Of a stretch of 64,000 nucleotides of DNA, positions 602-61,082 are shown one piece after another. The stretch comes from Asterella californica. Its lineage: Eukaryota; Streptophyta; Marchantiopsida; Marchantiales; Aytoniaceae. Location of the stretch: positions 10,639,001 to 10,703,000 of the forward strand of contig JAYKYS010000010.1 of assembly GCA_036924285.1 (NCBI GenBank). The letters run 5' to 3'. The first letter of the stretch is position 1; each line of letters starts with the position of its first letter. The notes under the pieces are model-generated. The model did no database searches and had not been told where the DNA came from. It saw only the letters and a list, made by a program, of their open reading frames with translations. The position numbers and the translations under genes were made by a program.

Positions 602-1854
602 TGACAATGATTTGGTAACAAAGCAATAGTTCCTTTTTTAGGTTGTCTACATACGTCGATCAGTGATGGATAATGTGTATCATAAGCATTGCAGTCTACA
701 TGATGATCAGTATGATTTTTCGTCAAGAATTCTGCTTCTACCGCACCTACAGACTCAAGATCTCGAGTTCATTGCTTGTGATGCCTTACATGTTTGTTCT
801 TCTGTAGTAGCTTATATTGCTCGTCAATAGCAGAAAACAACTGAGCGGAGAATTGACAGGTATAGGAGCTGTCAGGCAATGGCTTGTGACCCCAAACACT
901 GTATTTGAGTCTGGTGAGGAGGTATTGATGTAATGAGATTTAACCGATACAGTGACTTGTGACCAAAGCTTGTGATATATCTGTGAGGTCTCCTTATGGT
1001 TTTATGTTCGGAGTGAGTTTATAACGTAGGGGAATTTGGTGCGCTGATTTTCTCTAGTGTTGTCTGGTTCGCAAGCTCTGTTACACTTTGAATCTCTGAA
1101 ATATGAGACTTGTTTCATAGACGGAGTGATTGGAAATATATCTTAGTTTGGAAGAGGCAAGCGAGTTTAGGTCCCACGCACCAGTATCTGTGATGTTTCA
1201 AGTTTGCATTTTTTGTGGCTCGCAGGTTTTGGACGAACTCAAGGCTGCTGCTCAGTGCTCTGAAATGACCTGAAACCCCCAGAGCTCGTCTTGCTGTGAC
1301 CAGACCTTCCTCAGCGCTTCCGGGTGACTTCTTTCATATGACTCAGCCTAAATGCCCCAACCAAGGTTCGGTGTCTGCACATTGCTTTCATCTGGTTCTA
1401 TGAATCATGAGACGATGAAAATGAAACGATGAGATTCACAAAAATTGTCATGGGTATCTAATGATCAGAAGGGAAGCCTCAAGCAGCAACGAAAAGGAGA
1501 CGTGCATCGCTCGACGAGACGAAAGTTCTTGCTGTGGGGTTGATGGATTTGACTCTTCTACGTGCAGAGAAATAGTTTCTGAGTGGCTTTGGATGTTAAA
1601 CTGAGAGAGTACTTTAGTTCTCTAGATCAGTTTAGATGGATTTTTAGGAGCTTGTGATATATTATGCTTTCAAGATTTTAGTTAAATCGTTCAGAGATCT
1701 GCTGTTGTGGAGTATATGATCAAGTATTCCAGATCCTGTCTGCAAATCAAAATTTTCGTTTGAGAAATGAAGCTGTCGTGCTCAAGTCTTGTGGAAGGAC
1801 TGCTTAACGAAGACATTGTCTACTCTTTTACCCGGTTGCTAATCACTATACCGG
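602..1854. other. non-coding spacer, nothing recognised
   Basis: No long frame and no repeat shared with the rest of the window. It may contain the 3' UTR of the gene suspected upstream. It ends at the target palindrome TATACCGGTATA, which is split by the first solo LTR. Confidence 0.4.
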
Positions 1855-3129
1855 TGTCGCGCTACTTGGCGGCTACATGTTATATTTCTACTCCGACGCT
1901 TGAGTTTAGTAGTTCTAGAAGTTAGCTTATATTACTTCTAGTCGTTTATGTATATGTTTGACACCTTTGCATACGGTGTTAACACTATTTTGAGTCTTAG
2001 TAGGTTGATTACCATGTTGATAGGGCTTAAGCTCATGGGTTGTATTTGCGTGTCGCCCATGCACGCTTTCTAGCTGATTTAAGTTATTTTTCGGGGCTGC
2101 GTGTCGTTTTAAGTAATTTAAGTTTTACGCTGGCACTCTAGGGGGCTTGATGTGGTAGCCTATGAGTAAAACTAAGTTGCCACGTGGTTTAGGGTACTAA
2201 AGGACAACCAAGTGGAGCTATGAACTCCCATTGGTCCATTTTTGTCTTTTGTTAAACTCTAAATTTAGAAATAGAGCTCTAGAGTGGAGTTCGAGCATTT
2301 GGTGAGGGATCTTCGAAATCTGAGAGCACAGGGAGAGAGGTCTCGTCATGCCAAGCACTTCCAGTGAAAATTTCGATCGATTTGAGTCAATAAAGACGGA
2401 GTTATGAGCAATTGAAGTTCGGATTGTGCTAGAATTGAATCATTTTGGTTGGATTTAGGGTTTTCAGTGTCACTCGCAGCAGATTTGAGGAAATTGCTTC
2501 AAAACTTCGAGGTTGTGTTCTCCGCCAGCAGGGCTACGATTTCACAAAAAGTTTCATATCGATTGAGCAACTGAGTAATTCAGGGCGGCCGCTGAAGCTG
2601 AGGGGGTCTGAAAAGCTCTTAATCTAGAGCAGCGACTTCAGAGGAGGAGATCTACAGTTCTGTGTACATTCAGGAGTCCCAACTTCACAGGGATGTTCAG
2701 CACCCTGTAGACTGCAAATCCTGTAAGAAACTTCGAAATTGATCGAGCCAAACTCCTGTTATAAGTTGAAATAGCCAGCTAGGTACCAGAAATTGCCGTA
2801 GTTTTCTTGCTTTTCTGTTCATATCTCCGTGTCAGAATTTGATCTCAGGCTGAAATTTCGTCTGTGAGTTCAGTAGTACCTCATTTGCATGTAGGGGAAG
2901 TTTAGAGGTCTAAACCTTCATAGTTTTCCTCTCCGTGAGTGTCAAAGTTCACCGCCGAATCCTATTACTGCCAGCTAGACCTGAATTTCGCCTTCTGGGT
3001 ATATTACTAGATCTTACACATCTGTGTGAGTGTTTATAGCCCTATTGTGACCTGAAAGCCAACCTCTTGAGTGAACAACCACAGCCAGAAGCCCGGCGCT
3101 TTCCTAGGTAGACGGATTACACTCCGACA
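1855..3129 (+). mobile_element. solo LTR A, Ty3/gypsy family alpha, TSD CCGG
   Basis: A 1275-bp unit begins TGTCGCGCTACTTGG and ends CACTCCGACA, so the termini are the inverted TGTCG/CGACA. It is flanked by the direct repeat CCGG (1851-1854 and 3130-3133), and the flanks join to the palindrome TATACCGGTATA. It matches the 5' LTR of the gypsy element at 30661-32029 along its whole length except for a roughly 90-bp deletion near its first third (the segment seen at about 30813-30900). No internal coding region is attached, so this is a solo LTR left by LTR-LTR recombination. Confidence 0.9.
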
Positions 3130-3133
3130 CCGG

Positions 3134-3747
3134 TATATAATCAGAGTTGTCTTAAACAGAACATAATACAAGTCATTTAACTCTAGAAATGTGTTGTTGC
3201 TAAATTCATAGTTTTCTGTCACCAGTTAAGAACTTTAGTTGAAAAACTTTAGTTGAAAAACTTCAGTTGTGTGATATTCTGTGTGTTTACTATTTACTGG
3301 TTACCTCCAGTGGATGTGAGAAGTTCTTGCCTTGCGCTGCATTCCATATACACGGGGATATATCCTGACCTCTTCTTAATTTTCGAGTGCACACCTACTT
3401 ATCAGCGGTGTCAAATGAGCTTTCAGACCACGGCCGGGCAACTGGCAGTTTGAACGTGGAGCTGTGCTCGTTGCTTGCTTCATGCTCTCATCGGTTATTG
3501 TTATAAGAAACTTCTCTTTCCCTAATGATGGTTATGTTCTGCTATTCTTTAGTCCGTTACTACAAATCCAACACACAAATTTACTTCAGTCTTGTTTCAG
3601 TTTGTCCAATTCAATTGTATGGCTTCTCTTAGCAGTTGATGAACAGGTCAGTGAAGAGGAGGAGCTATATCGAGCTCTGCTTACACCAGTCTTTAAACGA
3701 TAAACGATACTCCTTACAGAGGTCTAGCATGATAGGAAAGAGAACGG
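3134..3747. other. spacer between inverted solo LTRs
   Basis: About 0.6 kb of unique sequence with small open frames only. Three short tandem copies of an AACTTTAGTTGAA-type unit lie at about 3231-3270. This would be the loop if the flanking inverted LTRs were transcribed together. Confidence 0.5.
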
Positions 3748-5122
3748 TGTCGGAGTGTGATCCGTCTACCTAGGAAAGCGCCGAGCTTCTGGCTGTGGTT
3801 GTTTACTCAAGAGGTTGGCTTTCAGGTCACAACAGGGGCCATAAACACTCACACAGTTGTGTAGGATCCTCTAATATGCTCAAAAGGTGAAATTTAGGTC
3901 TAACTAGCAGTAATAAGTTTAGGCGGTGAACTTTGACACACAAAAAGAGAGGAAAACTATGAAGGTTTAGACTTCTAAACTTCCCCTACATGTAAATGAG
4001 GTACTACTGGACACACACACGAAGTTTCAGCCTGAGATCAAATCCCAGCACTGAGATGTGGACAGAAAAGTTCTGAGTAAGAAAATTGCAACAATTTTTG
4101 GTATCCAGATGGCTATTTCAACCTAGAACAGAAGTTTGGCTCGATGAATTTCAAATATTCTCACAGTATTTGAAGTCTACAGGATGCTGAACATCCCTGT
4201 GAAGTTGGGACTCCTGAATGTACACAGAACTCCAGATCTCCTCCTCTGAAGTCGCTGCTCTAGATTAAGAGCTTTTCAGACCCCCTCTGCTTCAGCGGCC
4301 GCCCTGAATTACTCAGTTACTCAATCGATATGAAACTTTTTGGGAAATCGTAGCCCTGCTGGCAGAGAACGCAACCACGAAGTTTTGAAGCGATTTCTTC
4401 AATTCTGCTGCAAGTGACACTGAAAACCCCAAAATCAACAAAAGTGATGCAGTTTTGGCATAATCCGAACTTCAATTGGGCATAACTTCGTCTTTATTAC
4501 CTCAAATCGATCAAAAATTTCACTGATAGTGCTTGGCTCGACGAGCTCTATCTCCCTGTGCTCTCAGATTTTGAAGATACCTCACCAAATGCTCGAACTC
4601 CACTCTAGAGCTCTGTTTCTAAACTTAGAGTTAAACTAAAGACAAAAACAGACCAATGGGAGTTCATAGCTCCACTTGGTTGTCCTTTAGTACACTAAAC
4701 TACCTGGTAACTTATCTACACTCATAGGCTACCACGTCAAGCCCTCTAGAGTGCCAGCGTAAAACTTAAACTACCTAAAATGACACGTAGCCCAAAAAAA
4801 TAACTTAAATTAGCTAGAAAGCGTGCATGGGCGACAAGTAAGTACAACCCATGAACTCAAACCCTTATCAGCATGGAAACCCTAAGTTATGTACATTGAA
4901 CGTCATAGACAAGTAAGAAGTCACTTGCACAAGCGCACAAATGCTTGAACAAGATAACTAACATACTATCAGCCTACTAGGACTCAAAATAGTGTTAACA
5001 CCGTATGCAAAGCTGTCAAACATATACATAAAGGACTAGAAGTAATATGAGCTAACTTCTAGAACTACCAAACCTAAGCGTCGGAGTAGAAGTCAAGCAT
5101 GTAGTCGTCAAATGACGCGACA
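3748..5122 (-). mobile_element. solo LTR B, Ty3/gypsy family alpha, inverted, TSD ACGG
   Basis: A 1375-bp unit that is the reverse complement of LTR A (start TGTCGGAGTGTG, end GACGCGACA on the plus strand). It has its own target duplication ACGG at 3744-3747 and 5123-5126. It keeps the roughly 90-bp block missing from LTR A, so A and B are independent insertions and not one inverted duplication. No coding remnants are attached. Confidence 0.9.
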
Positions 5123-5126
5123 ACGG

Positions 5127-10990: not shown

Positions 10991-10992
10991 TT

Positions 10993-11043
10993 ATTAATTT
11001 ATTATCCAACCTTTCTTATAGAAAAGTTAGGTAATAAATTAAT
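10993..11043. repeat. imperfect long hairpin, AT-rich (MITE-like core)
   Basis: The arms AATTTATTATCCAACCTTTC and GAAAAGTTAGGTAATAAATT face each other around TTATA. A related hairpin (CCTAACTTTT/AAAAGTTAAG) is found at about 25105-25146 with similar sequence following it. This suggests two copies of one small fold-back element. Confidence 0.5.
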
Positions 11044-17225: not shown

Positions 17226-17239
17226 TTATAAGAGAGGAG

Positions 17240-24058: not shown

Positions 24059-24059
24059 C

Positions 24060-30656: not shown

Positions 30657-30660
30657 ACGT

Positions 30661-32057: not shown

Positions 32058-32442
32058 AACCTAGGGTGGGAGTTTTCTTGAGAGTGTTACAGGATCAGAT
32101 ATCATGACCAACCAAGATTCAGAGAGGGTGACCAAGAGAACGTTCTTGGAGTGGGTGGTTAAGCGTAACAAGGGTTTGTCTGTAAATGAGTTGTTAAGGG
32201 AGTTTGATCATCAGTATGCTCAACTTTCTAGGACAAAGAAGCTTACACTAGAGGTGGAGAAGACTGAGCTTTTCTTACAAGCAGTGGACGTGACTATTCA
32301 GCAGAAGCTTGAGTTGTTGTTCGAAGACAAGAGTGAGGAGAGAGGATTGAAGACTGATTGGAAGGAGGTTGAAGAGGTTGTCTCTTTGCTGACCAAGAGA
32401 CAAAGAAGAAGGGACAAGGTGGTGGTAAGTGAAGTAGCACGT

Positions 32443-34200: not shown

Positions 34201-34518
34201 ACGTCTGATAATTCCTGTCAAGCAGTTGCCTACTAAGCCCGCTCTGGTAATTGCTAGAGAGGAAGACTCACCATTTGATGAATTGATTAAGAGTATGAAG
34301 GAGCTTAAGCTTAAGCTCACTAGGTTAGAAGAGAAGGAGCAGAATGTACAACCTGCTATGCAGAGACCTCAGATGAGGGAAGGCTTTGTTCATCGTTGTA
34401 TATGGTGCGATAGCCTAGACCATGTAAGAAGAGATTGTGGATCAAACTGTCGGAAGATGAGGAGGATGAGATTGCTGGTTACTGCTCTCAAGTATCAGAG
34501 GGGAGATCGTATTAGCAC

Positions 34519-38999: not shown

Positions 39000-39282
39000 T
39001 TGGTGTTACCAGCGGCAGAATTGGCCGAGGCCACTTTTTTTCTCAAGGAGTTGGGTCTCGACTTCTTCCTGTGGGATTGGAACCTTGCCGATCAGGGACT
39101 TCTAGAGGAGGTGTGGGCAGCGTTACCACCTCGCAACCGTGTACCTGCGAAGGCAAGAGTAGCTCGAGGAAGACCATCTTCCTGGACTGAAGATTGGTGG
39201 CGCAAGGCTTTCCACAGGCCAGAATCCGAGGACCGAGGGTATTGGTTTGAGAAGAAGATTTTGTCTTGTGTCGTGAGTACGT
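39000..39282 (+). pseudogene. LARD-like element ORF, segment before the gypsy insertion
   Basis: An open frame without an ATG reads LGLDFFLWDWNLADQGLLEE and SWTEDWWRKAFHRPESEDRG. It is in phase with the segment that begins at 49376 once the gypsy element and one ACGT copy are left out, so the insertion split a single coding frame. It looks like a gag-type or plant-mobile-domain-like globular region, but the family is not recognised. The true start may be on an upstream exon. Confidence 0.55.
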
Positions 39283-41314: not shown

Positions 41315-41326
41315 TCCACCCCCTCT
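41315..41326 (-). other. polypurine tract of gamma element
   Basis: AGAGGGGGTGGA on the minus strand directly abuts the 3' LTR, where it would prime plus-strand DNA. The beta element has GGAGGGGGTGGA in the same place (59348-59359). Confidence 0.85.
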
Positions 41327-41389
41327 GAACCTGTGCATCCTCCGGTATGCACCAGAGATACCAACCAAGGAGTGGACCGGCTTATCGTC

Positions 41390-44860: not shown

Positions 44861-47265
44861 CGAAAATCCTTGAACTCTTCACTCACCCTTGGAAGCGGCT
44901 TCTCCCTCAAACGATCTCGGTTGCGCTCGTGGTTGGACGGTACAGTCAGGAACTGTACCGCTCTCTTCCCATCTTGACTTCGGATCCTAGCATACGCAGA
45001 TCCGTCGTCCAGTACCTTTGTCTCCATCCGGGTTGCTATGATGAAAGGTTGATCCAGAACGAGTGGGTATGATGTTGCTTCCTGAACAAAGAAGTTTTGC
45101 TCAATAGCAACATCACCTACGCGCACTCTGATGTCAGGACAAGCTCCATACAAGTCTCCTCTCGTGTTGTTGGCTGCTCTTATGACCCATCCATGCTCTG
45201 TGTCGATAGGCCACTTCTTCCTCTTGTACAGCTCCTTCGACATGATGTTGATTTCTGATCCATGATCGATCAGAGCAACCACCGGCTCATCCAAGTCCTC
45301 GATCCTCACCAACGTCTCCGTCGTAGCTCGAGCCCAGTGACTGTGGCTGTAATGACTTGAGCTCCGCTTCCCATCCTCCTCTTCATCCTCAAAATGCACC
45401 TTGCGCCTTCGATCTCTTTCTTCCTCTGGAGAATAGACACTGCACCTTGCAAGCTCTCTCTCCTCATCCACTGACATCCTAGTATCCAAAGCATGTGATA
45501 AACCAGTCTCACCCGTAATTTGTCGTTTCCGTTTGATGACATCGATGATGACATCATGAAACTCACGCTTGGCGATGCCTAACACTTCTCTCAAAGTAAA
45601 CTCCACCTTCGCATTCAGAATGCGATCTTCCAAGACTCCCTTCAAGTCTGTTGAAGCCTCGATATCCGACTGTAGCTTGTACGCAGCCGGCTTACCCTTC
45701 TCCTTCTGAGATTTCCCTTTCAATGGAGAAGGAGCATCGTCCATCGGTAGGTCTTGAGCTCCTGCATCCCGAAGCTCTTGGCGAACCTTCTCCCCTCGAG
45801 TCTGTCTCTTTGAAGAAGTCCCTTCTCCTGAATCCTCTGAATCTCGTCTTCTCTTCTCTTCCAACAACGCTTCGTGTTGGTTCTTGGCGATGTACGCATG
45901 CACCGATAGAGCTTCTATCGGATCCTCCCATCCAGTATCCTTTCTGATCGTTGCAGCTGTCCTCTGCAACGTCTCACGTGCCATCTTCCCTTTCTGTTTC
46001 ATGGAGATGGCAGATGACCACAACTCACTTGGCTCAACTTGCTTGTTGAAACTCCTCTCAGCCTGATCCTCTACCCTTGTGCCATAAGTTCCAGCTTCCA
46101 CGATGGCGACTGCTTGTGCTGATAGGTGGTCCTCAACCAACTTCTTCATCCCTCCTCTACCAAAGTTGGTCTGAAGAAGTGCACCTGTATCCTTCAACGC
46201 TACCTTCCCATCCTTCCAGAAGATCACCCCTTGCTGCAAGGTATCACTGAACTCCTTGCAATCTCTGCGCGGATGATCGGTACCATCGCACCAGATACAC
46301 CGCTGGATCCAGCCTTGCTTCTCAACAGGTTTTGCTCCGCTTGTAGATCCTTGCTCCTCCAATCTGGTGAGCTTGATCTGCAAGTCTCGCATCCCACGCA
46401 TGATCTCCTCAAGACTTGAGTCCTTCTTCGGAGATACTATCGGTGTCTGAACAACTGGAACAGCAGGAGCAACCGGCACTACCTGTCTAGCAACAGGAAC
46501 AACTGGTCGAACTACAGGAACAGGTGTTACAGCAGTTGGTGCTGGTGTCAGTCTCCTAACAGGAACCTTCTCTCGCCTCCGCTCCCTCTTGGTGAGCAGA
46601 CCAACAGCTTCTTCAACCTTCTTCCAGCTGCTAGTCAATCCATCGTCCTCCTCCCGGTCTTCCAGAAGTATCTCTAGCTTCTCCTGCAACTTCTCATCTG
46701 CAGCCCGAAGAAATAGCTCTGTCTTGTTGGACTGCAACGTCAACTTCTCCATCCTGGTCAACCGTGAAAACTGCTTCTCAAACTCTCTGAGCAACTCAGT
46801 AGCTTGTAAACCCTTCCTTGGTTGCTCAACCCACTCCAAGAATGACTTCTTGGTGACTCGATCAGAGTCTTCCAAGAAGTACTCATCCATCAAGGCACGA
46901 GCAAAGGTCTCCCAATCCTTGTTAAAATGCTTCGTTAGCATTTTAACATGATCCCTAATCTCTGGAGCTGCTGCCAACTCAAACGTCTCAATCATCTCAT
47001 CTTCTGAGACCCGGTTCAGCTCCATCTCCTTCACATAATGTCTCAGATACTTTGAGACATCTCTTCCATCAAACTGGTCAATCCTGCTGACCACCGCTTG
47101 TAGCGCCTTTGTTGCCAAAGCTTCCTTCCGCTCATCAGACTGTTGCTGCCGTAAGAACATAGTGAAAGCTTGGAACATCGATGCAGTCGCCGGATCCAAC
47201 TGCACCTTCGGTAACCCACTTGAACCACTAGCTCCATCTCCATCACCTTTCCCATCCCCACTCAT
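44857..47265 (-). CDS. gag-protease polyprotein of gamma element
   Basis: 802 residues from the ATG at 47265 (an upstream in-frame TTG at 47286 is not needed). Gag: ELNRVSEDEMIETFELAAAP and RVTKKSFLEWVEQP (residues about 80-150), forming the particle. A Pro/Val-rich linker lies at about 235-280. The zinc knuckle CIWCDGTDHPRRDC (Cys323, Cys326, His331, Cys336) binds RNA. A charged spacer follows, then the protease domain from about 640 with HWARATTETLVRI, ALIDHGSEINIMS (Asp667-His668-Gly669 in place of D-S/T-G) and a second conserved part TSYPLVLDQPFI. The stop TGA overlaps the pol ATG. The frame is fully open, so the protein is probably made. Confidence 0.93.
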   Translation of the reverse strand: MSGDGKGDGDGASGSSGLPKVQLDPATASMFQAFTMFLRQQQSDERKEALATKALQAVVSRIDQFDGRDVSKYLRHYVKEMELNRVSEDEMIETFELAAAPEIRDHVKMLTKHFNKDWETFARALMDEYFLEDSDRVTKKSFLEWVEQPRKGLQATELLREFEKQFSRLTRMEKLTLQSNKTELFLRAADEKLQEKLEILLEDREEDDGLTSSWKKVEEAVGLLTKRERRREKVPVRRLTPAPTAVTPVPVVRPVVPVARQVVPVAPAVPVVQTPIVSPKKDSSLEEIMRGMRDLQIKLTRLEEQGSTSGAKPVEKQGWIQRCIWCDGTDHPRRDCKEFSDTLQQGVIFWKDGKVALKDTGALLQTNFGRGGMKKLVEDHLSAQAVAIVEAGTYGTRVEDQAERSFNKQVEPSELWSSAISMKQKGKMARETLQRTAATIRKDTGWEDPIEALSVHAYIAKNQHEALLEEKRRRDSEDSGEGTSSKRQTRGEKVRQELRDAGAQDLPMDDAPSPLKGKSQKEKGKPAAYKLQSDIEASTDLKGVLEDRILNAKVEFTLREVLGIAKREFHDVIIDVIKRKRQITGETGLSHALDTRMSVDEERELARCSVYSPEEERDRRRKVHFEDEEEDGKRSSSHYSHSHWARATTETLVRIEDLDEPVVALIDHGSEINIMSKELYKRKKWPIDTEHGWVIRAANNTRGDLYGACPDIRVRVGDVAIEQNFFVQEATSYPLVLDQPFIIATRMETKVLDDGSAYARIRSQDGKRAVQFLTVPSNHERNRDRLREKPLPRVSEEFKDFR

Positions 47266-47320
47266 GACTGCCAATCTCTTCTTCAAAGTTCACACACAGA
47301 AGAAATCTCCACCCCAGACC

Positions 47321-47338
47321 TTCACGTCGAGTTCACCA
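47321..47338 (-). other. primer binding site of gamma element, Trp tRNA
   Basis: TGGTGAACTCGACGTGAA starts 4 nt inside the 5' LTR boundary. From memory of the plant Trp tRNA 3' end it would pair at 17 of 18 positions. Confidence 0.75.
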
Positions 47339-47342
47339 CCGA

Positions 47343-49375
47343 TGTCGTGTCGGATATTTTGTGCGTGAAGGATGTCCAGGAAAATGCGAGGTTCCTGGCT
47401 GTGGAGATGCTGTGTGCCAAACAGAGACAAGACAGAGAAGAACAACCACGAAATGAACGCTGCGATATATACCACTCTGAAAGTATGTACACTGTCGGTT
47501 CTTTCTCCAAACAGCACAAAACTGAGGAAAAGACCAGAGCGGTCTGTAACCTAAAGCCCTAAAACAAACCCCTGAAACGCAACCCTAGTCTGAAATCGCC
47601 AAAGCGTAGCTCAAAGCAAGAGGAACTTCTCTTTGCTAACAACCAGAGCCACAACAGTATCATGCGATCCAAACCCAAGTCCAAACCACATCCACACACT
47701 AGCTCTTGGCTAAAGCTAGCTACCACAAGCCATACACAACCAACTAAGTCCTTAACGAACTCAAAAGGACGAAACCTGTAGCGAAGGAACCGAAAAAGAC
47801 CTATCTGGGAACTTTCTCCTTTCGCCAAACGATCTTCAAATGTTGATAGGGTCTCCTTCCCTGACTCCGTTGGCCCAAGAAACCTTCAGATCCGACTCCC
47901 GATAGTCGAGATATCGTCAATTTTCGGTCGCAGGTGATCGAACCTTCAAAAACTCCTCCCTGCGGCTTAAAACCGCTCACACCGCACAAACGGATCGTCT
48001 AAACTGATATCCGTCTTCGCTGGTAGGTAGATCTGGCTACCCTGAACCCAACAAGACTCCAAACAAGCCGTTTGGAGTTCCCCTTGCAAATCTACTCGAG
48101 AAATTTGGTCGCAGGCTACAAAAAACTGACGTAAATCGGCTCCCTGCGGCTCAAATTTGCTCACCACACCCAAACCAACAATCCAATTCACGTACAGTCT
48201 TCTCTTATGAGTAGATGAAGACTCCCTGATCGCATAGGCACCAAGAACGAAGAGCTTGGCTCACCGATCGCAAAGAACAGCCCAACCTCAGGTCGCAGGC
48301 GAACGAAAATCTGATGTAAGCGTTTCCCTGCGAGCCAATTTCACTCAAAACTTCCAACCCGCCCGATAAAAACTGGTATCGTCTTCAATTTCCTGTAGAA
48401 CTCGGTGTTCTGATCCCGTTGGATCCAAGGACAGCAAGTTTGGACTCCGGAACGGCCCGAACGGTCCAACTCTCCTTCACAGGTAATTGAAAACCCCAAA
48501 TCTGCTTCATGCGTCTCAATTTCACTCAGTACGCACTCCCCGATCCGTCTCTTCCCAAACCGTTTGAACCAGTGCGTAGCCTGCACAGATCTGAATCCAA
48601 CGACGCCTTGCGCGCTTGCATTGGACTCCCAAATCTCCCGCACCGTCCGTTGACAGGTCGCAGGCGCAAAGCAAGCCCCTTAAGCAGCCCCCTTGTTACA
48701 GTCTGTACGTACGAAGTTCAACCCTCAATAATAAGAAGCAGGCCCCTTGCGTGTTTGATATAACGCCTGAAGCCCTAAATACCCAGTCAGCAAGTAACTA
48801 GGGGTCTAGCTTGATTTTACCTTTTTCCGAATCGCATAACTTCCGGATCGCATAACTTCTTCTCTGGATGTCCAAACGAAATAAACAAGATGCCCATGGA
48901 AAGCTGACAACGAGCTCTATCCATCTATGCGGTAAAAGTAAAGATCCGAAGTTGCGCCAAAAGCTCGTAAGCTAGGGCCTAGCTTGTTTTCTCCATCTTT
49001 CGAGTCCTGTAACTTCTTCACTATGCGTCCAAACGAAGTAGACAAAGTGCCTATAGAATGCTGACAAGGAGCTCTATCCACTGGTGCGATAAGAACGAAG
49101 ATCCGAAGTGGTGCCAAAAACCCGTAAGCTGGGGCCTAGCTTATTTTCTCCATCTTTCGAGTCCTGTAACTTCTCCACTAGGCGTCCAAACGAAGTAGAC
49201 AAAGTGCCTTTGGAAAGCTGACAAGGAGCTCTACCCATCTATGTGATGAAAATGGAGATCTGAGATTGTGCCAAAAGCCCGTAAGCTGGGGCCTAGCTTG
49301 TCTTCTCATGAGTGTCTTTGGAGCAACAAGTATCGAAGTTTGAATTTCAAGTAGGAGCCGGTCCACGACACGACA
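47343..49375 (-). repeat. 5' LTR of gamma element
   Basis: 2033 bp. The half far from gag holds three tandem units of about 157 bp (marker GGGCCTAGCTT) and the middle holds about five diverged units of about 180 bp (marker GGTCGCAGG), the same as in the 3' LTR. TATA is at 47473-47464. Confidence 0.95.
47464..47473 (-). promoter_or_regulatory. TATA box of gamma 5' LTR
   Basis: GGTATATATC on the minus strand, about 120 nt from the LTR end, predicts transcription starting near 47435 and a short R-U5 of about 90 nt. The same motif is at 39413-39404 in the 3' LTR. Confidence 0.5.
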
Positions 49376-49879
49376 ACGTGGCATGTGCCTGGGAGCACCA
49401 CTTGTCTTTTTGTGGAAGACAGGCAGGGTAGGAATGGGTGGAAGATTGAATCTTACCGGGAACCGAAGAAGCGACTTCTGGCGAAGCTGTTTCTGCATCT
49501 CTTCCCCAAGGGGAAAGCGCAGAAGACGAGGTACCTGGGAGATCAGGACGTAGAGTTCCTGGAAGCAGTGTGGGATGAAAGAGTGTCCATCTACTGGGGC
49601 GCATACGTCCACAACTATGTACAGGCGGAGCTAGCGTACTTGGGTACCTCGGCGGGAGGACACTTGACACCTTTCTTCTGCTACTTGTACGTAGCCATGG
49701 GGGATCTTCGGGAAGATCAGCTGGCGAAGTATGGGCCAACAGGGCAACAGGAAGAGAAGGAAGAGACCTCAAAAGACGACGACAGAGCCAGCAGCCGCAA
49801 CTCCCCCTCCCACTCTGATGCCACAGTTGAGGTCCGGCTCCCACCAGAAGACGCTTCTGATGAGGGAAGACGAGTCTAG
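49376..49879 (+). pseudogene. LARD-like element ORF, segment after the gypsy insertion
   Basis: Continues the split frame with VEDRQGRNGWKIESYREPKK, KTRYLGDQDVEFLEAVWDER and YVQAELAYLGTSAGGHLTPF, a Trp/Tyr-rich globular segment, then an acidic EEKEETSKDDD run and a TAG at 49877-49879. The downstream 508-codon frame starts in a different phase within its last 150 bp, so either a frameshift mutation or programmed frameshifting or splicing links the two. Confidence 0.55.
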
Positions 49880-51257
49880 TGGGTCGGAAGACGCCACGTC
49901 ATCGAGGAAGATGGGTCTTAGAAGTGTACCTAGGAAGCCCACCTCCCTCATTCATTCAAGATCGGAGTCCGACTCGGAAGAAGAACTGCTGAGTACCCGA
50001 TCAGAGCAGAAGGCCGCTTCTGCAACACCTGGGAGTCTTCCGAAGACTCTAGAAGACAAGAGAAGAAGGGATACTCCTACTGCGATGCGAGGAAGCGCAG
50101 TGAAGAGAACTGCTCCTGCCATGAGGGATCTTCCACCCCGGAAGATGAGAAGGGTAGCTTCTTCTTGTGCGCAGAAGATGAAGGCCATCGTGGTGGAAGA
50201 GGCATCCTTGCCTCTGGAAGACAAGGTCGACACCTCCGAGCGAGTGGTGGAGATGAACCTGTCTTCCGCAGGAAGAAGATTGGAAGAGTTCAGCGCCTTC
50301 TTCCACACAGAGATCCAGCCAGCTATGGAGTTTCTGGAGAAGAGAGCGAAGGCTCAAGAGAAGCCGCTACAACCTGGATTCGATCTACGCACCTTGCTGC
50401 GACAGGAAGAAGACCAGAAGAAGACGGAGTCGGTGGAAGCCAGTCTCCGCACCACGGAGAAGCTCGCAGCAAGATACAAGGCGGAAGTAGCCACTTTTGC
50501 CAAGGAGCTGGTGCAGCTTCGGAAGAGCAACCAGGAGTTGCAGGCGCGTGTACAGCAACGCGATCAGGAGGTTCTCCGAGTGCGAGAGAAGATCACCGCC
50601 CTCGCAGAAGAGAAGATGACATGGGCGAAACAGCAAGAAGCCGTAGAAGCGCGAGTTGCAGTCGAGAAGACGCAGCGGGAAGCAGCGGAGGCTCGTGCAC
50701 AGGAGATGCTAGCACAGTCGGTGGAAGCGCTTCGGAAGAAGTTCAACTTCATCGCAGGTAGGAAGCTACTTACCTTGGCTAGAGGATGGGACAGCGAGTC
50801 CAAGACAATGTTGGTAGAATGCAGAGAGAGCATGTTCAGATACTTGGATCGGCAGATAGAGGGAGTGAAGACACTCTATGGTCTTTCCTCGCTTCCGACA
50901 CCTGCAACTGCGTCTTCCCAAGCTCCAGTACCATCTACTGAATCCGGAATGGAGAAGGAGGAGTTCGACCTCGCTGTGCACTTGGTAGTGACAGCGTTGG
51001 AGCCGAGAAGACACCGGAAGACGTCTCGGAAGACAAGATGTCTTCTGGAAGACAGGAAGACGAGCCGTCTTCCCAAGTATTCCGTGTGGAGGAAGCGACT
51101 TCCCCGGACCCCTCAGAAGACCGAAGACGCACCACTTGACTCTGCTTCCCAGAAGATGCTCGCGTCTTCCGAAGCAGAAGCCGAAGCCGAGGAAGACGCA
51201 GCCGCAGCGACAGCAGGGTCAGCGAAGAGTGATGAGGAGGAAGCCACCTCAGTGTGA
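49731..51257 (+). CDS. coiled-coil protein of the LARD-like element (508 codons)
   Basis: The longest frame of this element. Residues 1-150 are basic and Ser/Glu-rich with KRTAPAMRDLPPRKMRR (a possible nuclear signal). Residues about 225-335 are a long heptad-like helix rich in Glu, Gln, Lys and Ala (KELVQLRKSNQELQARVQQR and similar). Residues 340-385 are a conserved-looking block with ARGWDSESKTMLVECRESMF. The end is low-complexity with Glu-Ala runs. No enzyme motif. A structural, gag-like role is inferred from the position in a retroelement. The ATG used overlaps the preceding frame and is uncertain. Confidence 0.5.
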   Translation: MGQQGNRKRRKRPQKTTTEPAAATPPPTLMPQLRSGSHQKTLLMREDESSGSEDATSSRKMGLRSVPRKPTSLIHSRSESDSEEELLSTRSEQKAASATPGSLPKTLEDKRRRDTPTAMRGSAVKRTAPAMRDLPPRKMRRVASSCAQKMKAIVVEEASLPLEDKVDTSERVVEMNLSSAGRRLEEFSAFFHTEIQPAMEFLEKRAKAQEKPLQPGFDLRTLLRQEEDQKKTESVEASLRTTEKLAARYKAEVATFAKELVQLRKSNQELQARVQQRDQEVLRVREKITALAEEKMTWAKQQEAVEARVAVEKTQREAAEARAQEMLAQSVEALRKKFNFIAGRKLLTLARGWDSESKTMLVECRESMFRYLDRQIEGVKTLYGLSSLPTPATASSQAPVPSTESGMEKEEFDLAVHLVVTALEPRRHRKTSRKTRCLLEDRKTSRLPKYSVWRKRLPRTPQKTEDAPLDSASQKMLASSEAEAEAEEDAAAATAGSAKSDEEEATSV

Positions 51258-52954
51258 CACTCGAGGTAACTGCATGGCTTTCTAGCTTATCAGAAGCCGC
51301 GTTATGAGCTCTGATAGGAGCAGATCAGGTAGAGGTTGCCTCCGTGCAATCAAAGTAGATAGTAACCGAAGTGACAAACTCCCAATTTAGTAGGACCGAA
51401 CATGCTATCTTAAGGGTGGCAGTTTTCGATGTAAAATTAGTTAGGACACCATGTGGCAGCATAGGTAGCGTAGGAGAAACAAGGTGGATGGCTAATTAGG
51501 AGGGGGAACCGTTTGCATGTGGGCTGGCAGCCTCCTGTCAGCGCCTCTCTCTCCCTGGTGGTCGCCTCCTTTGATTCTCACGGCAGCGACATAAGTAGGA
51601 TTGCAGCGTAGGAATGGAGCTAGCTGCTGCACACCCATATCGATTCTATGGTACAGGCAGACTAGACACATTAGAGACACATGACAGATAGTTCTTGGCA
51701 CACTACACCCGTCGTTGGAAACATACGAATAGTCTTGGAATACACAGGAGGGGTCTGCATGCTCGTACCAGCAGTGGTTCGAAGATGTAGATAGAGGTAG
51801 TGGACAGTTTAGGAGCAGGGAACGGCATCCTCGTGCAGTCCTGTTGACTAGACTGGTGTGTCGAGGAGTAGACGCAGGAAGTAGAGGGAGTGAGCTTCCC
51901 AATGCCAATGTGACTTCTTCTCGGGGAATGGATTGCTGATTTGAGTGCAGAAGCTTAACTCGTGTCTTCTGGGTGGTGGGTTTTCTTGAATTCGCTCCCA
52001 ATTGTGCATGAGAAGTGTTCTTCTTGAGTGGCGGTGAATGTCAACAGTTGTGGAAGTGTAGCTTGACTCGTTCAGTAGAGCACTTGGGATCTGCGTACGA
52101 ACGGTCTTATGGGTAAGGGATCCCAGAAGACAGAGTAGTCAGAGCAGCGAAGTGAAGAAGAAAGAAGCCTTCTTCCCACAGCAGAAGACGACATCCTCGA
52201 GTAGAAGACGGTGCAACTGTACACATGTTTGTTGTCTTCCTCCCCAAACTATTACAAGCAGGGATGGCTTGTTAGTCAGGATCCGGACTAGAAGCCTGTC
52301 GGAATCTTAATTTCCTCTTTTCATCTTGTTTTCTCTTGTTTGGATTTTCTCTTCTTCCCCATCTTCTCTCATCTTCCCCATCTTCTTACCTTCTTCTAGT
52401 GAGCTTCCGAGACTTCTATTGAGCTTCCGTGAAGGTGAATGTCGTTGTAGTGCTGCAGGAAGACTATTTCCGTAGGCAGAAGCCTGGGAAGGCTACAGGG
52501 GGGCATACACCCTATGATTGATCTAACCCGTTGTAATGTGAGTGGAAGAGTAAGGTGTAACGACCGTTGCTAGTCGACTTCTGTGGAGTAGGGCAATCTT
52601 CTGGAGGTGTGAGAAGACGAGTTGAATCCCCAGAAGACGAGAATCGCTTCGCGAAGAAGGTATCGAGAAGACCGGAAGAAGCAACCTGGAAGCAGGAAGA
52701 TCATCTTCCCGAGCTTCTCTGTGAATAGTTGTGTGATATTTTAGTTAGTAGTTGTTTGTTTAGTTCCAGAGCACCTTTTTGCGTGTCTGGAAGACGCATG
52801 GTCTTGTGAGAAGACGGGATTTCTAGGCAAAACCCGTGTGTTTGTGTGTTAGAACAGATCTTAGAGCTTAGAGCAGCGTTACTTGTGCAAATCCTCTGTG
52901 GGAACGATATCTTGTATACTAAATGGGCAAAAGGAGTAATCCTGCGTCACTACA
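51258..52954 (+). other. 3' part of LARD-like element, non-coding
   Basis: No plus-strand gene. A minus frame at 51492-52001 has no motif. GAAGAC/GTCTTC is again frequent at 52120-52250 and 52600-52820. A G-run (CTACAGGGGGGC) at about 52493 might be a polypurine tract. The last 90 bp (GTGGGAACGATATCTTG onward) have the look of a plant LTR end. Confidence 0.5.
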
Positions 52955-53068
52955 GTAAACCAGCCACAGCCTGAAGCCCAACGCTTCCCTGAGTAGATTG
53001 AACACAGCCTTCAAGCTCATATCACAACCAGAAGGTTCGCCCTTCCCAGGAAGACTCTCAACTCGACA
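52955..53068 (+). repeat. 5' LTR of beta element, last part
   Basis: Begins with the second GTAAA copy and runs CCAGCCACAGCC... to CAACTCGACA, matching the last 110 bp of the 3' LTR. Confidence 0.9.
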
Positions 53069-53070
53069 TC

Positions 53071-53088
53071 TGGTGCTTCCACTGAGAG
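53071..53088 (+). other. primer binding site of beta element (tRNA not assigned)
   Basis: TGGTGCTTCCACTGAGAG begins 2 nt after the LTR end at 53068. The minus-strand beta element has the same site with a one-base deletion (34860-34844). It differs clearly from the Trp-type site of the alpha and gamma elements. I could not match it to a tRNA from memory. Confidence 0.6.
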
Positions 53089-53137
53089 CTCTTGGGGTGA
53101 TTGATTGAGAAGGTTGAGTTTACTACAAGGAGAGAAG

Positions 53138-55681
53138 ATGGATCGTAAGAGCGCTACTGCTGCTACTTCTGCGGCTGCTGCATCTACGTCTACTGCAGCA
53201 CCTTCTGTAGCACTTGTGACTGCAGCGACCTCTGTACCTGGTCTGGATACGGCTGAGATTCTGAAGACGCTTGCGACCTTGGTCCAACAGCATCCGATCG
53301 TTGGAGGGGGTGAGTTAAAATCCACCAAGGCTTTGCAAGCGATAGTGAATAGGTGTGGAAGGTTTGAAGAAGAGATATTTCTAGATATTTGCGTGAGTAT
53401 AGAGGAGAGATGGAGCTGGTTAGGGTTATTGATGCTGAGATGATAGCAAGTTTTGAGTTAGCTGTCATTCCTAAGTTGCGGGACCAAGTTAAGGATGTAC
53501 AGAGAAGAAATCTTGGAATCTGGATGAGTTTTGAGCGATCTCTTCGAGAGGAGTTTCTTGAGGAGGATTCAGAGAGAGTTACTAGAAGGACATTTCTAGA
53601 CTGGGTTGAGCAGCAATCCGATCGTATGATGAGCCTGAGTGAGTTGTTGAGAGGGTTTGATCAGAGATACCGACAACTTTCAACTCTAGAGCGGATAACC
53701 CTAGATGCTAGGAGAATAGAGCTTTTCCTGCAAGCTACCGATGATGCTACGACAGATCGGTTATGTTTTATGTTGGCTGATCGATCTGCTAAGGGAGGTG
53801 TTACTATGGATTGGGGGAGAGTTGAGGATGATGTGGCTTTACTGACAAGGCAGAGGAGGAGAAGAGTGGCTGTGGGAGGACATCCGCTTGCAGAAGTGGT
53901 CACTCCACCTTATACTGCTCCTCAAGTACAGCAACCTTTGGCCCCTGCTCCCAAACCTGTTTTCCCAGCTGCAGTTCTTTTGATGCCAGTTGTGCCAGCT
54001 CTTGCACAAAGGCCATATGTTTAGAGACCTACGGAGAATCATGCTCAGGAGAACCAGATTGAAGACCTAATTCGGCAGATGCGAGAGCTGAAGGTAGAGC
54101 TAGCTGGATTGCAAAGAGAGCAGCCACCGGCGTCTGCTGCTGCACGTCCAGAAGGAGCTCCGATTCGTAGATGTATTTGGTGTGACAGTCCTGATCATTT
54201 CTGAGGAGACTGTCAAGAGCTCACATCTGCTTTGCGAGATGGTGTGGTTCGCTATCAGAACGGTAGGCTGCACCTTTCTTCTACTGGAGAGCCGTTGAGC
54301 ACGCAGTTTGGGCGAGGAGGCATGAGGAGTCTACCTCAGATTGCTGCGGCTGCAGCAGCAACTACGTTGATGGCACCGCTGGTAAATTCTGATGTATATG
54401 CTGGGCATATTGAGGTCTCTTCTAGTCCTACATTGCTAGATAAGACTGCTGAGAAGAGTGTGGTGCCAGTTCCTTCTGAGATATTGAAGAGAGGAGCCGA
54501 GTCTATTCGTAGAGACCCTGTGAGACCCTGTAGATGCTGATTCTATCAGAGCATTCTTGGATGTAGATAGACACGTTCATTGGCAGGATGCTTCTGTGGA
54601 GGAAAAGAGACGACAAGAAGTCTCTGAACTTGATACATGAGTTCTTGAGGAGACTGGGGATAGACGAAGAGTCACAAGGAGATGAGCGGCTCTTCCTGAG
54701 GACATCCCGTCTACTTCTGCAGCTCCTCCACCTGCACCAGGTCCTATGGAGGACGTGCAGAGATCCCAGCAGGAGCCAACGACTGCTGGTAGGCGGTTTA
54801 CTGCCCAAGAGAAAGAGAAGGGACCGGCTTATAAGTCGGCAGCTGATATTGAAACTTCTACTGATCTGAAGAGCATCTTGGAGCAGAGGATACTGGATGC
54901 GTGAATCGAGTTTTCTCTCCGAGAAGTTCTTGGTATTGCAAAGAGGGAGTTTCACGAACTAATCATCGACATCATCAAGTGCAAGAGACAGGTGATGTCT
55001 GAACAAGTGGAAAGTCAAATGATAGATGTGGTAGGAGCTTCTGTGAATGATGTAGAGTTTGGAAAGGTGCATTTTCAGGAAGCTGATGACCATGAAAACC
55101 AGCAAGAAGCGTTAGTTGTTGGTACCAACACTATTGAGTTCGACGATGAGGAAGCTGGCGAGGAGAATCCAGCTACTGATAGTGATTTCAGAAGGAGACA
55201 TTGGGCTCGTGCTACAACTGCTACACGAGTTCGTCTTGGAAGTTTGGCTGAACCTGTTGCTACTTTAGTTGATCACGGATCTGAGATCAACATCATGTCA
55301 CGGGAGGTGTACGAGAGAAGTCAGTGGCCTATTGAGATGAACCATAGTTGGGTGCTACGAGCTGCAAACAACCAGAAGGGTGAGTTATACGGCACTTGTC
55401 CTAACGTGAAAGTGAAGATAAGTGATGTGGATGTGGATCAACATTTCTTCGTACAATCTTCTGCTTCATATCCTGTGATTCTTGACCAGCCTTATATCAC
55501 TGCAGTTCGAATGGGGACCAAGGTAATGGATGACAGATCTCATTACGCTAAGATCCGTAGTCTAGATGATAGACGTTCTATGCAGTTTCTGACCGTTCGT
55601 ACGAACCACGAACGAAACCGACAGACCTTGAGGGATTCTCCTATCTATAGGAGTAAGGGTTTTCAGAAACCACTCTCGTAG
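53138..55681 (+). pseudogene. gag-protease pseudogene of beta element
   Basis: Starts MDRKSATAATSA and shifts frame at about 53370. It then has FELAVIPKLRDQVKDV, ERVTRRTFLDWVEQ and LDARRIELFLQATDD. A Pro-rich linker leads to a zinc knuckle CIWCDSPDHF-stop-GDC (54171-54213) in which an Arg codon is TGA. After a spacer with several breaks, protease follows in one frame (54992-55681): HWARATTATRVRLGS and ATLVDHGSEINIMS, with D-H-G at the active site. Domain order and spacing match the intact gag-protease at 44857-47265. At least two frameshifts and four stops make it inactive. Confidence 0.85.
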
Positions 55682-55699
55682 GAAGGGATAGCGAGAGTG

Positions 55700-58600
55700 A
55701 TGGATCTACTGCTACTATGATCCCGCTTGAGCAGCCTGAGGGATCACAAGAGGCTGATGGAGAGGCTGCTCAAGATTCAAAAAGTAGTTGCACTGTACAT
55801 AGTTGGAAATCTGGTTTGATGGCTTTCAGTTCCGATGATTGGAGTGAGTTCACGCGGATAGAGGATTTGACTGAGAAGAGTAGAAGGTAGATGGAGAGGT
55901 GTGCAGCAAATCTACGTTGTACAGGAGTTCTGAAGGAAGATGAGATGAATTTCTGGTGTTTATGAGGAGTTTGTAGGTGTACAGTCTTTTGTTCGTTGGC
56001 TGGATGATGTAGGTAGGTTGATGGAACAGATGGGAGGTAGGGTGGTGATCCCCATCCATTCTCGTGAAGTCTATGAGGAGATTATCTCATACTTGCGATA
56101 TCTTCCTCATCCGAGACTGGAGAATGGATGGAAGGATGCAGTCTGTTGGTGTGGCTCTCGACAAGAAGCGGAAGTACATGCCAAGTATAAAGCTGTAGCG
56201 AGGAAGGTGAGACCTGTGGCGCCCCAATTACCTGTTAATTCTCAGCAGCAGATGGAGTTAGCGGCTGCTGAGCCTGTGCTTAGAGATCTTACACAGGTAG
56301 GACATAAGTTTACTCAAGAGACACTCGAGCAGCTCTAGATAGGAGGGGGTGGCTTCTTGACTGAAGAAGAGAAACGAGCTTTTGAACAAATGATAGTTAG
56401 CCATGGTAAGGCATTTTCTTTCTCGGCTGAGGAGATAGGTTGTGTGGATTCTAGTGTGATAGCTCCGATGGTTATCTTCACTGTTCCTCACGTACCTTAG
56501 GACTTGAAGCCGATTCTAGTCCCTCGTGCCTTGCTACCGAAGGTGATTGAGTTACTGAAGGAAAGGATGCAGATGGGTATTCTTGAACCATCTATGGCTC
56601 CGTACTCTAGCCGATGATTCACAGTACCTAAGAAGATAAGAGCTCTGCGCTTCATCCAAGACTTGCAGCTTGCCAACAACATCACGATTCCAAACGTTGG
56701 AACAGGACCTGTGGTTGACGAAGTAGCTGAGGCGTTTGCTGGAAGGTCAATCTATTCTATTGGAGATCTGTTTTCAGGTTATGATCAGTTTCAGCTTGCT
56801 TTGGAGAGTAGAGACTTGACTACCATGCGTACACCTTTGGGATTGATGCGGATGTGTACTCTTCCTCAAGGTGCGACAAACTCAGTAGCCCATATGCAGA
56901 ATGCGATGCATAAGGTGTTACGAGAGTTTGTACCTGAGGTCACTATCCCGTTTCTGGATGATATTTCCATGAAAGGCTGTCCGGTGGAAGACAAAGACGA
57001 AGCTGTGACTTCTGATGGATGCAGAAAGTTTGTTGCAGACCACATTCGGGATGTGGAGAAGATTCTGATGCGTTTGGAGGAGGTACACCTCACTCTATCA
57101 GGTACCAAATCTCATTTTGGTATGTCAAAGATTGTGGTGGTGGGTCATTTGTGTGGTACTTTTGAGAGGCGTCCAAACCTAGAGAAGGTAGATGCTATAG
57201 CAAGGATAGCTGATTGCACCAACATCACTGAGGTTCGACGGTTCTTGGGAGCTTGTGTGTTCTTTCGTGTGAGTATTCCTCATTATGCACACATTGTCAA
57301 GTCTCTGTATGCACTTCTGAGAAAGGGAAGGAGGTTTACTTGGCGGCAAGAACATCATGAGACGATGGAGCAGCTGAAGGAGATTCTGAAATCTCCACCT
57401 ATACTAAGGAGGCTTAGCTACGAGAGCGGGAGACCTGTGGTACTGACTGTTGATACGAGTCCAAAGGCGATTGGATGGACAGTTGGCCAAGAAGATGCAG
57501 AAGGTGTGCGATTTGTTTCAAGGTTTGGAGCTCGGATCTTAACAGATAGACAGCGTAACTATCCTCAAGTGAAGCGTGAGTTGTGGGGAGCTGTTATTGC
57601 TATGAAGGTAGATCGAGAGTTCTTGATAGGAGCTCGTGTGATACTAGAAACAGATTGTTTGCCTTTGTTGGGTATGATAGCAAATTGCAATACACTAGAC
57701 ATAGCAATGCTGCGATGGATTGCTTATGTCCGGAGTCTGAACCCTGAGCTAAAGCATATAGCAGGAAAGGACAATCCAGTTGCAGATATGTTGTCTAGGG
57801 CTCGCTATACAGATGAGGATGAGATGTTTGCAGAAGTGGAGAATGAAGAGAGGAGAGACGTTTGGTGCCAAGTTGGTCAGCAGATTACAGACTTGGAACC
57901 ACTGCCATTCAATGAGGAGTTCTACTCCTCAGAAAGGTTCCGCGATATTGGATTTTATCTGAGTTCGTTATGCAGAAGAGAAGGATGGAGTGATGCAGAG
58001 TTCAAAGAGATCAGACGGAAGGCGTACAGTTATCTTCTACGTGAAGGTTATTTGTGGAAACGTCCGAAAAGAAGAGATGGAGTGCTTGCTAGAGTGGTGG
58101 ATGATCAACCGACGAAGCTGAATCTGCTGAAAGAGTTTCATGACACCTTGTGGACTGGACATCGTGGAGTATGAGCTACTTACACGAAGATGAAAGAGCG
58201 TTACTGGAAGGGTTTGTATCAAGACGTGGTGGACTTTGTTGGGTCGTGTCTGCACTGCCAGTTCTACTCTAAAGTCCGTTACAGAGATGGACTTGTACCT
58301 ACTTATCCACCTAGTATTCATTTTCAGTGGGTTCTTGATCTTGGGATGATGCCACCGGGGTTATGGGAGATGCGTTACTTGGTGTTGGCTCGAGAGGATC
58401 TCTCCAATTATATGGATGAGCACTACGGACGAAGACTATAGAGAATATCTGCAGGTTCGTGCTTGAAGATATCATCTGTCGCTATGGATCGGTTGGGAGA
58501 TTACGTGCAGATAGAGGCGAGTTGAGAGGCGCTGAAGTGAAGGAGTTTTTTGCTCGTTGTGGAGTAAAGCTTCGACTTACTACTGCTATGAATCCAGAGG

Positions 58601-59313
58601 GTATTGGTAAGAGTGAACGAGGACACTCTTCTATTGTTCACGCTTTAGTGAAAGCATGTGATGGTAGGCCTAGAAAATGGCCGAGACTACTTCTGTTTGC
58701 TTTGTGGGCTGATAGGACTACACACTGTACTACGACTGGCTATATGCCAGTTGAGCTTATGTTGGGTCAGAAACCGATCATGCCTGCTGAAGAGTACTTT
58801 CCTACGTGGGCTACGCTACCGTGGGAAGATGGTATAGATCGTGCTTCACTCCTAAATTTACATATAAGGCAGTTGGAGCGAAGGGAGGAGGATCTTGCTG
58901 ATGCGTAGGAGAGGCTGAAGGTGACTCGAGTCAGAAACAAGGAACGTTTTGACAAGACTCACCGACTACGACCGAAGCCAATACATGTTGGTGATTGGGT
59001 TCTGGTATATGATAGCACGTTGGAGAATCAGCATTCTACACTTCGTAAGTTCTCTCGAAGATGGTTCGGGCCTTATGTTGTGCTAGATGTGTATGAGAAT
59101 GCCACTTATAGTTTGCGTGAGTTGGATGGTACTCTTTTGAAGCTATCTGTGGCTGACAAACGTGTGAAACTGTTCAAGAGACGCGGAGGGTCAGTTGAGT
59201 TATTCAACTTTCTGGAGTCAGAGCTGAGGACAACCAGAGACGGAGACATCCCAATGTCTGATGAGGCTGAGGCGGAGGAGAGCGATGATGATGAAGATCA
59301 AACAGAAGACTGA
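55700..59313 (+). pseudogene. pol pseudogene of beta element: RT, RNase H, integrase
   Basis: The N-terminal region has IPIHSREVYEEII and GHKFTQETLEQL (56040-56335). RT: SIGDLFSGYDQFQLA and PFLDDISMKG (catalytic FLDD) inside the 503-codon frame 56663-58174. RNase H: VLTVDTSPKAIGWTVG, QVKRELWG, LETDCLPLLGM and AGKDNPVADMLSRARY. Integrase: FHDTLWTGHRG and CLHC zinc finger, RADRGEL and KSERGHSSIV (58459-58908), then RRWFGPYVVLDV (GPY/F module). Stops replace Trp at about 56498, 56615 and 58172 and interrupt at 56336, 58439 and 58906. It ends with an acidic tail and has no chromodomain. Confidence 0.88.
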
Positions 59314-59347
59314 GGGGAATGACACATACCGGAGGATGTGCAAGTTT

Positions 59348-59359
59348 GGAGGGGGTGGA
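59348..59359 (+). other. polypurine tract of beta element
   Basis: GGAGGGGGTGGA abuts the 3' LTR start at 59360, nearly identical to that of the gamma element. Confidence 0.85.
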
Positions 59360-60518
59360 TGTCGTGATGTGAATCATTTCACATAGTAAATGATTCACTT
59401 CTCTGTCAAGCGTTAGTCTCTCTGAGTGAAGTTAAGACCTCAGAGAAGTCCATTTTTGGAAGATGTTATATATTTTAAGTCTTAGTAGGTTGATTACCAT
59501 GTTCATAGGGTTTAAGCTCATGGGTTGTATTTGCGTGTCGCCCATGCACGCTTTCTAGCTGATTTAAGTTATTTTTGGGACTGCGTGTCGTTTTAGGTAG
59601 TTTAAGTTTTACGCTTGCACTCTAGGGGGCTTGACGTGGTAGCCTATGAGTGTAGATAAGTTACCAGGTAGATAAAGGCACAAAAGGACAGTCAAGTGGA
59701 GCTATGAACTCCCATTGGTCCATTTTTGTCTTTTGTAAAACTCTAAGTTTAGAAACAGAGCTCTAGAGTGGATTTCGAGCAATTGGTGAAGGTACTGCGA
59801 AATCTGAGAGCATAGTGAGATAGAGCTCGTCGAGCCAAGCACTGTCAGTGAAATTCTTGATCGATTTGGATCAATAAACAAGGATTTATGCCCAATTGAA
59901 ATTCGGATTGTGCCAAAACTGCATCACTTTTGTTGATTTTGGGGTTTTGAGTGTCAGTTGCAGCAGAATTGAGGAAATTGCTTCAAACCTTCGTGGTTGC
60001 ATTCACTGCCAGCCGGGCTACGACTGTCAAAAAAGTTTCAAGTGATTTGAGTTACTGAGTAATTCAAGGCGACCACTGAAGTAGAGGGGGTCCGAAAAGC
60101 TCTCAATCTGGAACAGCAACTTCAGAGAGCGAGATCTGGAGTTCTGTGTGGAATCAGGAGGTTCAACTTCACAGGAGTGTTCAGCAAGCTATGTACTGCA
60201 AATCCTTAGGACCTCATTGACATGTAGGAGGAGTTCTGAAGTCTGAACCTTCACATATTTCTTAATCCTGAGTGTCAAAGTTCGCCATCTGATCTTATCA
60301 TTGCTAGTTGAGTCTGAACTTTGCTTCCTGAACATATCAGAAGAGCCAAGAGACTTATATGAGTGTTTTTCAGTATCACCTTGAGACCTGAAGCCTATCC
60401 TTTGAGTAAACCAGCCACAGCCTGAAACCCAACGCTACCTGAGTAGATTCAACACAGCCTTCAAGCTCATATCACAGCCAGAAGGTTCGCCCTTCCCAGG
60501 AAGACTCTCAACCCGACA
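59360..60518 (+). repeat. 3' LTR of beta element
   Basis: 1159 bp, TGTCGTGATG to CAACCCGACA, directly after GGAGGGGGTGGA. It is uninterrupted and serves as the reference for the split 5' LTR. Confidence 0.92.
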
Positions 60519-60911
60519 GCGTGCATGGGCGATAAGTAAATACAACCCATGAACTTAAATTCTATCAACATAGTAAACTTAATTTATGTACTTTGAACAT
60601 CAAAGATAAGTATGAATTCACTTGAAGAAGCGTACGAATGCTTGAACAAGATAAATAACATACTATCAACCTACTAGGACTCCAAACATATAACACAACG
60701 GTGTTAACATTTGCATAAAGGACTAGGAGTAATATTAAGCTAACTTTTATGACCACTAACTCTCAAGTGTCGAAGTAGAAGCGTAACACGTAGCCGCCAA
60801 TGCTCATAACCTCCAAAATCGACTTCTCTGACGTCTTAACTTCACTCAGAAAGACTAACTCTTGACAGAGAGGTGAATTATTCACTATGTGGAATGATTC
60901 ACATCACGACA
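60519..60911 (-). repeat. 5' LTR of minus-strand beta element, 5' portion
   Basis: Ends ATGATTCACATCACGACA on the plus strand. Inside, at about 60720-60800, is the ACTCTCAAGTGTCGAAGTAGAAG module otherwise found at the start of alpha LTRs. Confidence 0.85.
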
Positions 60912-61082
60912 ACGTATCACATGTTGTCCACGTATGACAGTGCGCTTAGTCCAGTAGATTTAGTGATCATGAGGACCATTCGCGTGTTGTTTTGTTGGTT
61001 GTTGTTGCGTGGGTTATGGCAATTTTGTTGATTTTGTCCTCGGCCTTGTTGCCGATTACCGCTGTTCTGCTGCTATTTGGTG

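Follow-up and report, generated by a model that had tools for sequence, protein, structure and literature searches.

A strong preference for CG at the centre of four-base target site duplications in Ty3/gypsy retrotransposons of the liverwort Asterella californica

Most long terminal repeat (LTR) retrotransposons choose their insertion points loosely. A 64,000-nucleotide stretch of the genome of the liverwort Asterella californica (contig JAYKYS010000010.1, positions 10,639,001 to 10,703,000 of the forward strand; hereafter the window, with coordinates counted from its first letter) raises the question of whether some Ty3/gypsy elements insert at one particular dinucleotide. An initial annotation of the window had proposed that these elements duplicate 4 bp of target around an invariant CG. 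We found that the duplications are indeed 4 bp long, not 5, and that the preference for a central CG is strong. It is not invariant, since the CG is present in 87-95% of flanks on the 3' side. We consider it very probable that these insertions are the work of a non-chromovirus Ty3/gypsy group whose integrase uses a 4-bp stagger centred on CG, and that the flanks without CG mostly reflect later CpG decay.

Five insertions in the window retain both flanks, and the flanking words are identical on the two sides of each, as the initial annotation had listed them. E1, an LTR-only copy running from TGTCGCGC to CTCCGACA (1855..3129, plus strand), is flanked by CCGG (1851-1854 and 3130-3133). E2, an LTR-only copy of the same family (3748..5122, minus strand), is flanked by ACGG (3744-3747 and 5123-5126). 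E3 is an LTR-like copy of 1758 bp (32443..34200, minus strand) whose end is related to that of E4; its duplication is ACGT (32439-32442 and 34201-34204). E4, a full element enlarged by nested insertions (35952..60518, plus strand), lies between copies of GCGT (35948-35951 and 60519-60522), and its LTRs (35952-37004 with 52954-53068, and 59360-60518) are 97.2% identical. E3 and E4 represent a third LTR type, known here from the window only. E5, a full element of 10,093 bp (39283..49375, minus strand), has the duplication ACGT (39279-39282 and 49376-49379) and LTRs of about 2,033 bp (39283-41314 and 47343-49375) that are 99.6% identical. At the CG frequency of the window (0.0341), a central CG in all five has a chance probability of 4.6e-8. 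Empty versions of the E4 target exist as well, in five related LTR stretches of the window (at 2055, 4821, 30948, 36132 and 59540), each with a single GCGT/ACGC, showing that the CG derives from the target.

Two truncated elements also have ACGT at their outer ends. E6 is the complete 5' LTR of one of them (30661..32029, plus strand), with ACGT on its left (30657-30660) and internal sequence continuing on its right. E7 is the minus-strand 5' LTR of the other; it is interrupted by E4, with its inner part at 34864..35951 and its outer part at 60519..60911, and is followed by ACGT at 60912-60915. The flanking words had been correctly noted. However, the two LTRs, which belong to different subfamilies, are in head-to-head orientation and enclose internal sequence, so the two ACGT words may flank a single chimeric insertion and not mark two events.

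Does the pattern extend beyond the window? LTR flanks were collected from the whole genome (516.7 Mb in 773 contigs). For the E1/E2 family, we counted the 3' LTR termini whose four downstream bases did not begin with T or end with C, the middle two being free. The central CG (positions 2 and 3) was present in 1664 of these 1743 filtered flanks (95.5%). Among the 100 flanks listed individually, 98 had the CG, the exceptions being GTGG and ACCG. In these 98, the first base was A (51), C (29) or G (18), T being barred by the filter, and the fourth was T (64), G (32) or A (2), C being barred. When all rows with the commonest word, ACGT, were removed in case it represented an internal junction, CG remained in 61 of 63. 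The only LTR-internal junction identified in this family is that of E6, where the internal sequence begins with T and is therefore removed by the filter. A search in the family for one form of the E5-type junction gave no matches.

In the E5 family, 496 LTR 3' termini were found genome-wide and the first 70 were sampled. Their sorting depended on the downstream sequence, because the spacer between the 5' LTR and the primer binding site (PBS) of E5 (47339-47342) is itself an NCGN word, TCGG, which many sampled copies keep. Twenty-five ends were LTR-PBS junctions and 45 were genomic flanks; the latter number was 48 before three rows (L086, L114 and L123), in which the PBS follows with a change or an insertion, were reassigned by eye. 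A central CG was present in 39 of the 45, the others having CA (2), TG (2) or CT (2); in nearby DNA, the CG frequency is about 3.5-4%. Elsewhere in the first twelve bases, CG occurred only 0-3 times per position in the set of 48. On the 5' side, 43 sequence pieces contained 17 genomic flanks (two of them without a 3' partner) and four starts of 3' LTRs after a polypurine tract, while 22 gave no start; CG was central in 13 of the 17 flanks. The sequence ATATCCGACACGACAVCG had 283 matches genome-wide, a count without an exact denominator that includes at least two mutated LTR-PBS junctions (L053 and L090).

Next, the two sides of individual copies were compared in 16 flank pairs of the E5 family, including that of E5 itself. 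The pairing presumes that a copy is either a solo LTR or has its two LTRs spaced as expected. Six pairs were identical and six were one transition apart (TCAG/TCGG, GCGG/GCAG, ACGG/ACGA, TCGC/CCGC, TCGT/CCGT and CCGG/TCGG). In two pairs, one flank has CG where the other has CA, which suggests that CG was the state at insertion and is open to decay, and four of the six 3' flanks without CG have CA or TG. The loss of CG after insertion is likely due to methylation-linked deamination. Three duplications read CCG on one side and TCG on the other and are otherwise alike; such differences could be decay from non-CG methylation at CCG.

Several points weigh against the reading of these insertions as the work of an integrase with a CG-centred 4-bp stagger. 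The remaining four of the 16 pairs disagree (GCGT/TCGC, AAGA/GCGA, CCAT/ACGG and CCTA/CCGG), three of them lacking CG on one side; recombination between copies or a wrong pairing could account for these. Two of the six non-CG flanks of the E5 family (ACTG and CCTG) do not arise from CpG by a simple transition. The filter applied to the E1/E2 family conceals flanks with a first T or a last C, and the internal junctions of this family were identified only in E6. The sampled E5-family rows were drawn from two contigs, in contig order, and two of the 39 CG-bearing flanks (L093 and L121) resemble the TCGG spacer at their start; their exclusion leaves 37 of 43. Finally, Ty3, which yields 5-bp duplications, is about as close to the E5 integrase in sequence as prototype foamy virus is, which makes the structural link of this enzyme to a 4-bp stagger weak.

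What kind of enzyme could produce the pattern? E5 is a Ty3/gypsy LTR retrotransposon by its LTRs and by the order of reverse transcriptase, RNase H and integrase. Its pol open reading frame (ORF) of 1156 amino acids (aa) encodes these three activities (41390..44860, minus strand). Pfam matches follow in the order RVT_1, RT_RNaseH and Integrase_H2C2, with rve under its cutoff, and Ty3 Gag-Pol is the top PDB profile match. An 809-aa ORF in the gag-protease position (44857..47286, minus strand) matched only DUF4100, below threshold. Together the two ORFs (41390-47286) fill 5.9 of the approximately 6.0 kb of internal sequence. The integrase region (41393..42643, minus strand) has an H2C2 zinc domain, an rve core with D101, D160 and E195, and a weak SH3-like match at the C terminus. 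No chromodomain was among its six Pfam matches (E values up to 5, although the HMMER filters discard most matches above 0.1). Among solved structures, the best match of the catalytic core is foamy-virus integrase. Among named proteins, those of Riccia sorocarpa come closest to E5 pol, with up to 80% identity across the part used as query, and one row from the fern Adiantum nelumboides was also present; both statements refer to the best 120 of 271 matches. In a search with a distant query, Riccia, including Riccia fluitans, was the only organism named among the best 120 of 150 matches. No named Physcomitrella sequence was found in either set of 120, and viral contigs scanned with the E5 pol protein and with an alignment gave no relatives.

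Two further features of the E5 family were noted. Its LTRs contain 157-bp tandem repeats in 2.8 copies (at 40809-41246 and 48870-49307 in E5). In addition, several LTR ends of the same orientation on three contigs are spaced 4.3-4.6 kb apart and not about 8.05 kb; these shorter units suggest a non-autonomous family that derives from E5-type elements and shares their LTRs.

In the mechanism that we favour, the integrase would join the LTR ends (TGTCG...CGACA) to the target with a 4-bp stagger centred on a CG step, and fill-in by the host would then leave 4-bp duplications of the form V-C-G-B or similar (V, not T; B, not A). By analogy, the enzyme assembly may resemble the foamy-virus intasome, with the target bent at the central pyrimidine-purine (YR) step. 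A general preference for YR would have been tightened to a demand for CG through direct contact with those bases. Flanks without CG would mostly have lost it by CpG decay after insertion. More tentatively, the integrase may read the central CG itself, perhaps including its methylation state, through contacts unlike those of foamy virus; this would convert the general rule of YR bendability into a strict two-base code across diverged LTR subfamilies and in both moss and liverwort elements.

An unlikely alternative is that methylation or CpG-binding chromatin proteins lead the enzyme, or a partner from the host, to CpG, the CG preference being a by-product of tethering. The CG step is precisely the unit of CG methylation, and the decay from CG to CA or TG in the duplications points to methylation of the sites, if only once the element is in place; the methylation state at insertion is not readable from DNA. 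Tethering, however, is not expected to centre CG at the cut in 1664 of 1743 sites. Moreover, 19 3' flanks of 1.5 kb have a CpG frequency of 0.0352 and an observed/expected ratio of 0.70, close to the values of the window (0.0341 and 0.72). With this ordinary CpG content, the flanks show no trace of a targeting of CpG-rich regions, which was considered as well. None of these data show that insertion is steered toward or away from methylated DNA, as the initial annotation had thought possible.

It is highly improbable that the duplications are really 5 bp long and that the first boundaries were off by one. The 4-bp reading fits all five window insertions; the 5-bp reading also fits three of them when the fifth base is taken on the side of the LTR-terminal A, and one on the T side. 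Among the 12 identical or one-transition pairs of the E5 family, this base (compared by eye) matches in two on the A side and in none on the T side, no more than expected by chance. Equally hard to credit is the idea that the CG belongs to the element ends and only resembles a duplication. CG does occur beside both ends of the copies, but bases 1 and 4, which differ among copies, are the same on both sides of each of the five window insertions and in most of the pairs sampled, and the single GCGT of the unoccupied E4 target speaks against it too. Unspecific insertion followed by retention of CG copies through selection or recombination, for which no evidence was found, is just as improbable. 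The signal consists of one dinucleotide that holds the same position in 1664 of 1743 ends, and selection on one base step is not expected.

The window also contains an element that had been offered as a 5-bp contrast to the CG-centred insertions. This element, called a LARD-like (large retrotransposon derivative) element (37005-52953), lies inside the 5' LTR of E4 and hosts E5. It has the ends TGTGGTG/CACTACA and a duplication that can be read as 5 bp (GTAAA) or 6 bp (AGTAAA). A blastn comparison of its two halves found no LTRs, which makes it a poor control for the 5-bp duplications of LTR elements. It contains a 508-aa ORF (49731-51257) without a Pfam match. A copia-type gag fragment lies at 61085-61600 (minus strand).

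The constant placement of one dinucleotide, repeated at hundreds to thousands of sites in a single genome, makes base recognition by an integrase testable, and each insertion falls on the very CpG that plants methylate.

How does the pattern compare with known systems? The NCGN preference is already known, from one sentence, for Phygy, a plant non-chromovirus Ty3/gypsy lineage of the moss Physcomitrella patens (Neumann et al. 2019, PMC6317226). The same survey describes the duplications of plant elements as otherwise highly variable in sequence, 93.4% of all being 5 bp. Four-base duplications are commonest in Phygy, Galadriel and Bryco (Jedlicka et al. 2019, PMC6911290), and the central dinucleotides of 4-bp duplications are GC-rich overall (PMC6911290). 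By description, Phygy and the Asterella elements share a bryophyte host, the lack of a chromodomain, the NCGN preference, 4-bp duplications and, in E5, a coding region that spans nearly all of the internal part. The hosts differ (moss versus liverwort), and Phygy is called rather short, with no length given, whereas E5 measures 10.1 kb with 2-kb LTRs. The extension from moss to liverwort suggests that the trait is an old one among the gypsy elements of bryophytes.

Four base pairs had been called unusual for Ty3/gypsy elements. This is true among plants (PMC6317226), but it does not apply generally: the Drosophila Gypsy group has a strong 4-bp preference and palindromic motifs (PMC3276498), and the targets of the ZAM group are CGCG (PMC5408687). 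By description, the Drosophila errantiviruses (the ZAM, gypsy and Idefix groups) resemble the Asterella elements as Ty3/gypsy elements with 4-bp duplications at palindromic, sequence-specific targets. They differ in their animal hosts and in their targets, which are TATA, CGCG or ATAT and not NCGN.

The integrase of prototype foamy virus, the best structural match of the E5 core, also cuts with a 4-bp stagger, at the consensus VYRB with a flexible YR step (PMC4176367). Its preference is weak and accepts any YR, and its two base-contacting residues touch the bases beside YR, whereas CG alone is used here. The position of its Ala188 is occupied here by a nearly invariant Glu (E163).

Searches of the open-licence literature found no paper that unites gypsy, a 4-bp target site duplication and liverwort, and none besides PMC6317226 that links NCGN with a retrotransposon; the accessible text of PMC11302176 holds nothing on a CG target. 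Relative to this literature, the liverwort host, the genome-wide numbers and the occurrence in diverged LTR subfamilies are new. So are the VCGB-like pattern of the outer bases, the loss of CG once an element is in place and the parallel drawn with foamy-virus integrase. A habit that for the moss elements has a one-line mention can thus be measured in Asterella at very many insertions.

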